Part shown: piece by piece, positions 47,407-48,562 of the stretch
Layout: every line of letters starts with the position of its first letter
How positions within the stretch are numbered: the stretch's first letter is position 1
Translations under genes and position numbers: made by a program
Notes under the pieces: model-generated
What the model saw: the letters and a program-made list of their open reading frames with translations, nothing else
What the model was told of the DNA's origin: nothing
Database searches by the model: none
Origin: Tolypothrix sp. PCC 7910
GTDB lineage: Bacteria > Cyanobacteriota > Cyanobacteriia > Cyanobacteriales > Nostocaceae
Length of the DNA: 64,000 nucleotides
Reading direction: 5' to 3'
NCBI RefSeq assembly: GCF_011769525.1
Contig: NZ_CP050440.1
Location: 1,799,501 to 1,863,500, forward strand

Positions 47407-47439
47407 TATTTACATAAATTAATGAATAAGAAAAAAACT

Positions 47440-47610
47440 ATGTACACAACTGTTAATGAAGACGGCGTTCTCAACAACTACGCAACTGAACCCCAAATGT
47501 ACTACGCTGATTACCCTGCAATTTGGGAACAACGCAAATATGTTATACAAAGCGTTTTTGCTACATTGCTTGTCACTACTCTGGTGTTGGTTGGCTTGAG
47601 TGTTAGCTAG
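47440..47610 (+). CDS. psb34: Psb34, photosystem II assembly / light-harvesting-like protein
   Basis: 56 residues from ATG 47440: MYTTVNEDGVLNNYATEPQM, then an aromatic hinge YYADYPAIWEQRKYVIQ and one transmembrane helix (SVFATLLVTTLVLVGLSVS). This is the ssl1498/Psb34 family of one-helix proteins, related to HLIPs, that bind CP47-containing photosystem II assembly intermediates. The frame also opens at ATG 47422 (six more Lys-rich residues), which leaves an unusually short leader from the predicted promoter. A perfect terminator follows at 47657, then the tandem repeat array. Confidence 0.9.
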   Translation: MYTTVNEDGVLNNYATEPQMYYADYPAIWEQRKYVIQSVFATLLVTTLVLVGLSVS

Positions 47611-47656
47611 AATTTTTTAAATTTGGTATCAGTTCGTTATTCGAGCTTCTCCTTTT

Positions 47657-47685
47657 AACCCCGGTTAGTGCCACCGGGGTTTTTT
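47657..47685 (+). terminator. psb34 terminator
   Basis: AACCCCGGT (47657-47665) and ACCGGGGTT (47673-47681) with a 7-nt loop, then a T run. Its 3' half (GGGGTTTTTTGTGAGC) is also the start of the tandem repeat unit that follows. Confidence 0.93.
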
Positions 47686-48170
47686 GTGAGCAATTAACCA
47701 TACATAATCAGAAACCCAGCCTTAATGACTGGGTTTTTGCTGGGGTATATCCCCGTGCTTTCGGTATAAAGTTTACATATAAGTTGCTTGTCTGAGAATT
47801 ACTACAACATTGAATTTGTCGATTCCTGAAAAAGTCCTGGGGTTTTTTGTGAGCAATTAACCATACATAATCAGAAACCCAGCCTTAATGACTGGGTTTT
47901 TGCTGGGGTATATCCCCGTGCTTTCGGTATAAAGTTTACATATAAGTTGCTTGTCTGAGAATTACTACAGCATGAGATTTCCCGATTCCAGAGAACTTGC
48001 CACCGAAATTTTTGATGACTTAGCAACCTATATATAATCAAAAACCCAGCCTTGATGACTGGGTTGTTGTTGGGGTATGTCCCCGTGCTTTCGGTATAAA
48101 GTTTACATATAAGTTGCTTGTCTGAGAATTACTACAACATTAGATTTCCCGATTCCAGAAAAAGTAAAAC
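47676..48170 (+). ncRNA. three tandem copies of a structured 163-167-bp repeat, candidate small-RNA array
   Basis: Copies begin near 47676, 47839 and 48006; aligned anchors AAACCCAGCC are at 47712, 47875 and 48042. Copies 1 and 2 are nearly identical over more than 130 bp; copy 3 differs mainly in loop bases. Each holds a terminator-like hairpin (AAACCCAG ... CTGGGTTT plus T's in copies 1 and 2), a small stem GGGGTATATCCCC (GGGGTATGTCCCC in copy 3), then TTTACA - 16 bp - GAGAAT, a possible promoter (47772-47777 and 47794-47799 in copy 1). Read this way, a transcript starting in one copy ends at the hairpin of the next, about 95 nt. No open frame is shared. The RNA assignment is inference; the repeat is certain. 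Confidence 0.55.
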
Positions 48171-48257
48171 CAATTTGAAAAACAATCCAACAAAGACATA
48201 AAGAGGGGTATACACAATACCGTATAGATAAAACAAATTGATTGACGTTTAAAGCCT

Positions 48258-48285
48258 GTAGAGACGCGATCAATCGCGTCTCTAC
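48258..48285. repeat. dispersed-type hairpin GTAGAGACGCGAT
   Basis: GTAGAGACGCGAT (48258-48270) and ATCGCGTCTCTAC (48273-48285), perfect 13-bp stem with a 2-nt loop; I recall this palindrome as common in Nostoc intergenic DNA. The surroundings (48171-48562) contain GGGGTATAC-like sequence and the upstream region of the next gene, nothing else supported. Confidence 0.85.
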
Positions 48286-48562
48286 TCCACAGATTGATCG
48301 TGTATCTACAACCCCAAAATCATGACGAAAAATTCTTAACTGAACCGTATTGGGACTACACAGCTTTGTAAACCTAAAGATGATTAATGTGTTATCAATA
48401 TTTTTCTTAATTTGTATAAATTAATTACTCTTAAATTTTGGTGAGTAATCAATCCATACTCAATCAAGAATTGTATTGATTTGAGCGCTGGTACCTCTGT
48501 ATGTTCATATACTGAGAGTGTTCCCCAATTAGCGTGCAGAATGCACATTTGGAGGTTCCAAA

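Follow-up and report, generated by a model that had tools for sequence, protein, structure and literature searches.

What kind of element forms the three structured repeats that stand in tandem behind psb34 in Tolypothrix sp. PCC 7910? The window, by which we mean the whole stretch of 64,000 nucleotides that was analysed, had previously been interpreted from its letters alone. That sequence-only reading proposed an array of small-RNA (sRNA) genes in the style of NsiR1, transcribed from the plus strand, in which a TTTACA-16-GAGAAT box pair in each unit fires into the terminator of the next unit and yields transcripts of ~95 nt. Unit anatomy and conservation make an sRNA array in the NsiR1 style the most likely interpretation. 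However, the genes appear to lie on the opposite strand: judged from sequence and comparison, we put the probability that the array consists of three tandem copies of a minus-strand sRNA gene at about 0.85. The anatomy of the units, the promoter spacing, the strand bias of the wobble pairs, the family-wide homology and the tail-to-tail arrangement with psb34 and PsrR1 were all read from sequence or comparison, whereas the transcription of the units and the exact start and end of their RNAs are predictions.

The array begins 65 bases after the psb34 stop (Table 1). Repeat comparison confirmed the tandem arrangement with its near-identical first two copies, which occupy 47676-47832 and 47839-47995 (95% to copy 1) and are followed by a third at 48006-48162 (82% to copy 1), with copy-to-copy spacings of 163 and 167. 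Each copy has a AAACCCAG...CTGGGTTT hairpin and a second stem, GGGGTATATCCCC, which reads GGGGTATGTCCCC in copy 3, so that the hairpin and stem attributed to every unit are indeed present in all three. The eight differences between copies 1 and 2 all fall within 47807-47830, a stretch that runs from the −10 box to slightly beyond the −35 box of the minus-strand promoter described below. On the minus-strand reading they lie exclusively upstream of the −10 box, and the encoded RNAs are therefore identical. Copies 1 and 3 differ at 28 positions, and the earlier description of copy 3 as differing mainly in loops holds for some of these but not for most: 18 are in the left flank (47676-47703), outside the conserved unit, and the other 10 affect the terminator (its tail and loop), the linker, the small hairpin (its loop) and the promoter (its spacer and −35 box).

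Table 1. Features at the psb34-proximal array, in window coordinates.
Feature	Position	Strand	Basis
psb34 (ssl1498 family, photosystem II assembly protein)	47422..47610	+	NCBIfam NF033486, 91.5 bits, cut-off 45
PsrR1 sRNA in psb34 3' region	47608..47684	+	Rfam RF02701, 42.3 bits, gathering 42
Tandem array, three 157-nt direct copies	47676..48162	.	repeat comparison
sRNA gene copy 1, predicted 85-nt RNA	47709..47793	-	fold z −2.59; homologues
Copy 1 putative −10 element TGTAGT	47801..47806	-	alignment of homologous units
Copy 1 putative −35 element TCAGGA, one mismatch to DIF1 TCCGGA	47824..47829	-	17 nt from −10
sRNA gene copy 2, predicted 85-nt RNA, same as copy 1 RNA	47872..47956	-	fold z −2.59
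Copy 2 putative −10 element TGTAGT	47964..47969	-	motif position
Copy 2 putative −35 element TCTGGA	47987..47992	-	motif position
sRNA gene copy 3, predicted 85-nt RNA	48039..48123	-	fold z −3.62
Copy 3 putative −10 element TGTAGT	48131..48136	-	motif position
Copy 3 putative −35 element TCTGGA	48154..48159	-	motif position

psb34 lies to the left of the predicted sRNA genes and is convergent with them. The stretch behind it had been called a terminator; a terminator is present there, but the stretch itself also matches PsrR1, which had been missed. As had been noticed, the array shares its first bases with this terminator: it starts inside it, the left edge of repeat copy 1 being the terminator tail of PsrR1. 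The tail is repeated in copy 2, so the latest duplication seems to have carried a piece of it along. PsrR1 (also SyR1, RF02701) is a family separate from the array units and is their tail-to-tail neighbour, both here and at related units in other genera. Plasmids of Fischerella NIES-4106 and Nostoc MS1, among other loci, show the same psb34-PsrR1 pairing; given this recurrence, PsrR1 may derive from the psb34 3' end in the window's family.

Read on the minus strand, each unit presents, in order, a T-rich stretch, a TCCGGA-type hexamer, 17 nt, TGTAGT, 7 nt, and then ~85 nt leading to a GC stem with a T-run. The predicted RNA starts with an unstructured 5' part of ~35–40 nt and continues through a small GGGG-CCCC hairpin to a Rho-independent terminator. 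On this strand promoter, RNA and terminator all fall within each unit, and single units elsewhere also hold all parts. Each unit would thus use its own promoter, with a DIF1-like −35 element, a 17-nt spacer, TGTAGT and 7 nt to the start, to produce an RNA of ~85 nt that stops at its own terminator. The 5' part of the RNA would base-pair with mRNAs, and the tandem copies, two of which specify the same RNA, would raise the dose or diversify the promoters. Two TATAA-like blocks inside the predicted RNA (for example, 47764-47784 on the minus strand) are among its most conserved positions, and could belong to another promoter giving a shorter RNA. A protein-coding reading was rejected, as no ORF common to the units was seen by eye in the ORF lists, and a putative third hairpin in the start region, GTTG...CAAC, was likewise discarded because it is broken in many aligned units, again as judged by eye.

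The unit is neither peculiar to this locus nor a chance repeat. Within the window's family, a first covariance model, built from 12 units, matched 163 of the 217 genomes searched. These represent 38 of 56 genera and have between 1 and 16 matches each, about 150 of them having 1–5. The 54 family genomes with no match to this model imply that the unit is not a core heterocyst gene. Model R2, a minus-strand covariance model of 55 units picked for diversity, matched 9 of 388 genomes in a class-wide sample, all within the window's family, while at least 15 further family genomes in that sample gave no R2 match; searches over more than 40 genomes were run with stricter filters, at which weak matches are lost. 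In the host genome R2 finds 10 strong copies, including the three of the window, and the next match has an E value of 0.08. Five of them form a second array (C1:624851-625928) upstream of an ABC gene that is proV-like by its best NCBIfam match, though below the cut-off; the hexamer is TGCGGA in four of these units and TCCGGA in the one nearest the gene. Two separate copies reside on a 78.7-kb contig, and plasmids of Fischerella, Scytonema and Calothrix also carry copies.

The family is tandem in the window and single at most other loci examined; of 20 further loci, 18 contain a single unit on the unit's strand. Behind psb34-PsrR1 in the window's genus, the array has 5 units in the genome G002, 6 in Nostoc carneum NIES-2107 and, with other sequence between the units, 4 in Nostoc linckia FACHB-104. 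Calothrix membranacea FACHB-236 retains a 74-bp array stub at psb34 and has three units ~33 kb away in reversed orientation (C1:121800-154987), an apparent inversion with a break inside the array. The remaining three genomes of the genus have 1, 2 and 4 matches genome-wide, at the array locus or elsewhere. Copy number would change through unit-unit recombination, as the range of 3 to 6 copies among relatives suggests. Separately, arrays of four or five similar units were noted in G002, N. linckia FACHB-104, C. membranacea FACHB-236 and N. carneum NIES-2107.

The neighbours of the unit differ between lineages. Among 87 named unit loci, ftsH lies within 2 kb in at least 22, always convergent and 48–215 nt away, and psb34 lies within 2 kb in at least 8, always encoded opposite to the unit, with 5 pairs convergent and 3 divergent; these counts are lower bounds because the stretches had fixed borders. 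In Fischerella muscicola PCC 7414, Nostoc 106C, Nostoc T09 and a second N. linckia locus, PsrR1 separates psb34 from the unit; three other stretches with psb34 linkage (L143, L155 and L221) gave no PsrR1 match. The tail-to-tail pairing with psb34-PsrR1 therefore reaches beyond the window's genus. The ftsH-linked cases, Nostoc or Desmonostoc by name, probably represent one event. Other known RNAs occur nearby at a few loci: Cyano-1 (RF01701) ~130 nt upstream of the unit and on the same strand in Nostoc 106C (L219 4230-4305) and T09 (L225 3723-3798), and CyVA-1 (RF02965; L052 2542-2619) at a distance of about 0.9 kb from a unit with PsrR1 in its vicinity as well.

Conservation within the unit was analyzed using 85 distinct units, obtained from the 111 rows of two alignments (one of the window and 46 loci, the other of 20 further loci, chosen among those fetched) by removing duplicates, seven weak or opposite-strand matches and rows shorter than 115 nt. 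Since the units are related, counts over them are not independent of one another. The spacer between the −35 and −10 boxes is 17 nt long in 83 of the 85 (16 and 18 nt in one each), and the hexamer equals TCCGGA in 19, differs from it once in 63 and twice in 3. In information content the two boxes rank with the highest parts of the unit and the spacer with the lowest, and a fixed spacing around a variable sequence is promoter-like and unlike a plain repeat. The stem of the terminator points to the transcribed strand: its cells in the 85 units comprise 567 Watson-Crick pairs, 83 pairs that are G-U when the minus strand is read but not the plus, 17 for which the reverse holds, and 13 others. A further 79 units gave 563, 50, 10 and 9, respectively, which are rough counts from a stem located by a letter-limited pattern that skipped 2 units. 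The small hairpin is close to neutral, with 6 versus 3 wobble cells for minus versus plus. RNAalifold predicted 13 pairs from 55 minus-strand sequences, 7 of them with changes on both sides.

The promoter also predicts the RNA. A pattern confined to the region from the −35 box to about the RNA start, which matches only 37 of the 85 known units, hit 106 stretches in a scan of named genomes, 92 of them cyanobacterial (including Nostoc, Desmonostoc, Calothrix, Scytonema, Fischerella, Mastigocoleus, Rivularia and Westiellopsis). The 14 from elsewhere are taken as chance, with about 7 expected at even base composition. When R2 was run on 100 of these stretches, a same-strand match overlapping the pattern was obtained in 87 of 88 cyanobacterial ones and in none of 12 others. 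The test is not fully independent because R2 partly covers the promoter itself, but the 0 of 12 result indicates that the promoter part alone is insufficient for a match.

A footprint of constraint can be seen at the ftsH locus. In the genus that includes Nostoc punctiforme NIES-2108, a unit is tail-to-tail with ftsH (FtsH by TIGR01241). A query joining the ftsH 3' end and the unit gave some match in all 53 genomes of this genus. The match is in one piece in 32 genomes, and in 9 it is split into two that lie within about 1.1 kb of each other on the same contig; among the matches listed for the remaining 12 there is no ftsH-unit link, and some of these genomes clearly carry units elsewhere. The ftsH-linked alignment has 31 rows, namely the reference and 30 loci, with one genome in twice. 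Variability, defined as one minus the share of the commonest letter and averaged over columns, is 0.011 in the −35 block, 0.083 in the spacer and 0.025 from the −10 box to the start. Within the RNA it is 0.045 in the 5' part, 0.022 in the small hairpin, 0.024 and 0.056 in the terminator arms and 0.124 in the loop, and in the surroundings 0.376 over the leftmost 150 bases and 0.164 beyond the terminator. The ftsH coding region was left out, as its value is inflated by sequences that end early at the right edge. Conservation in this set extends leftwards from the −35 box over about 30 AT-rich bases; across genera, the sequences left of the hexamer have little but a T-run in common.

How closely do the units resemble NsiR1? 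NsiR1 is a heterocyst-specific sRNA of Nostoc/Anabaena, with 12 tandem copies upstream of hetF and antisense to it. Its tandem genes each have a DIF1 promoter (PMC9045159, PMC8406250). In the host genome the array taken as NsiR1 lies at C1:5539.2-5540.8 kb, upstream of a CHAT-domain gene taken as hetF, and has 12 TCCGGA sites 124–139 nt apart with one gap of 244. At the level of sequence, both systems have tandem sRNA genes with a promoter and a terminator each, identical and diverged copies in one array, and a TCCGGA-type −35 element followed by a 17-nt spacer. They differ in RNA length (about 85 nt versus about 60 nt for NsiR1) and in locus: NsiR1 is beside hetF, whereas the window array adjoins psb34-PsrR1 and the second array the proV-like ABC gene. 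Homology to NsiR1 was rejected, as R2 does not report the host NsiR1 array even at E ≤ 1. Over the 13-nt region after the spacer, which is AT-rich in the NsiR1 promoters, the two consensus sequences agree at 7 of 13 positions, a score also reached at two other offsets.

The DIF1 (DIF+) class is defined by TCCGGA near −35 with one mismatch allowed (PMC6133370); 82 of the 85 units have such a hexamer, all three window copies with one mismatch. The same source describes a minimal synthetic DIF promoter consisting of the hexamer and 17 bp, which is also the spacing of the units, and in patS the hexamer is 35 bp upstream of the start (PMC7377430), the same distance as to the predicted start of the unit RNA. 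By sequence the units thus match the −35 part of the DIF1 class, and the assignment is confined to that part. The chances that DIF1 control actually operates on the units appear about even. If it does, the DIF1-like box would regulate them, possibly with heterocyst-specific or nitrogen-stress expression as the outcome.

Three other explanations have to be set against this minus-strand gene. The plus-strand array, with TTTACA-16-GAGAAT driving an RNA of ~95 nt that ends at the AAACCCAG hairpin of the next unit, now seems highly improbable, although every window copy has the boxes on the plus strand, T's also follow the hairpin on its plus-strand 3' side, and the two strands fold equally well (plus-strand z −2.65). 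Indeed, the hairpin is nearly symmetrical and could also end plus-strand transcripts. However, TTTACA is present in only 18 of the 85 homologous units, and a sequence within two mismatches of TTGACA in 20; the distance between the plus-strand boxes is not constant, at 16 nt in 52 units, 15 nt in 26 and another length in 7; and the wobble pairs indicate the minus strand. At the single-unit loci (18 of 20) a plus-strand RNA would be left without a terminator. The plus-strand promoter model was rejected on conservation, and the transcripts predicted here are minus-strand RNAs of ~85 nt. Somewhat less improbable, but still very unlikely, is a dispersed intergenic repeat that is not transcribed, such as a mobile or MITE-like element, or else a cassette that terminates transcription in both directions. 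Lineage-specific neighbours, plasmid copies, tandem growth and up to 16 matches per genome would fit such an element, but the copy number is low in most matching genomes, the ends of the unit are not mutually inverted repeats (by eye in the alignment, against a MITE), the unit stays beside ftsH across the 32 and 9 linked genomes of the 53, and constraint there is limited to the RNA, the stems and the promoter boxes, together with ~30 bases on the left side of the boxes. The sequence-only reading had itself named a dispersed repeat without promoter conservation as the outcome that would count against it; the unit is dispersed, but its promoter is conserved, on the other strand.

The third explanation overlaps with the main one and is the most serious of the three, although we still consider it less probable than its negation: a minus-strand sRNA under a housekeeping or other regulator rather than DIF1, perhaps with a later start and an RNA of about 50 nt. 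The −10 sequence, TGTAGT, is far from TATAAT, which speaks against the promoter as drawn, and the −10 region is only loosely like that of NsiR1; the start may follow the two conserved TATAA-like blocks; exact TCCGGA occurs in only 19 of the 85 units; and a quarter or so of the family genomes (54 of 217) yield no match. Against it stands the fixed 17-nt spacing, which equals that of the host NsiR1 promoters and of the published synthetic DIF promoter (PMC6133370). Left of the hexamer, moreover, little beyond the T-run is common across genera, although the AT-rich bases are conserved in the ftsH-linked set.

Under the minus-strand reading the units also had to be compared with known RNAs. No family of Rfam release 15 reaches its gathering score on the units themselves, in the window or at the loci examined, and Cyano-1, CyVA-1 and other known Rfam RNAs were rejected as identities on this basis. 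At E ≤ 1, STnc430 alone touches unit 1, with a sub-threshold, chance-level score. Yfr1, Yfr2, Cyano-1 and CyVA-1 are likewise short intergenic RNAs with hairpins; Yfr1 and Yfr2 were presumably included in the Rfam library that was used. Many sRNAs, among them NsiR8 and NsiR9, have been predicted for Nostoc PCC 7120 (Brenes-Alvarez 2016, PMC4734099). Compared by description, the units resemble those limited to heterocystous strains, some of which are HetR-dependent. PCC 7120 is not among the 106 pattern stretches, a weak negative given that the pattern finds only 37 of 85 known units. In the literature consulted we found no description of the unit, a member of which may nevertheless have been detected earlier among the PCC 7120 sRNAs.

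The sRNA gene is apparently unnamed; it occurs in three quarters of the family genomes searched and has no match in Rfam release 15. If transcribed, the array would be a second kind of tandem sRNA array with DIF1-like promoters in heterocyst-forming cyanobacteria, besides NsiR1. Because its copy number ranges from three to six at a single locus within a genus, nature supplies a graded set in which sRNA dosage could be studied. Should the DIF1-like promoter work, the RNA would be a candidate for connecting cell differentiation to the photosystem II genes that it faces. A fuller picture, which we regard as speculative and on balance improbable, is that of a family-wide sRNA under DIF1-type control, facing psb34-PsrR1 or ftsH, which lowers photosynthesis-related expression in differentiating cells and whose tandem copies tune the dose.

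Immediately to the right of the array, at 48257-48310, there are inverted repeats around GTAGAGACGCGAT, which we take to resemble a common dispersed palindromic repeat of cyanobacteria.
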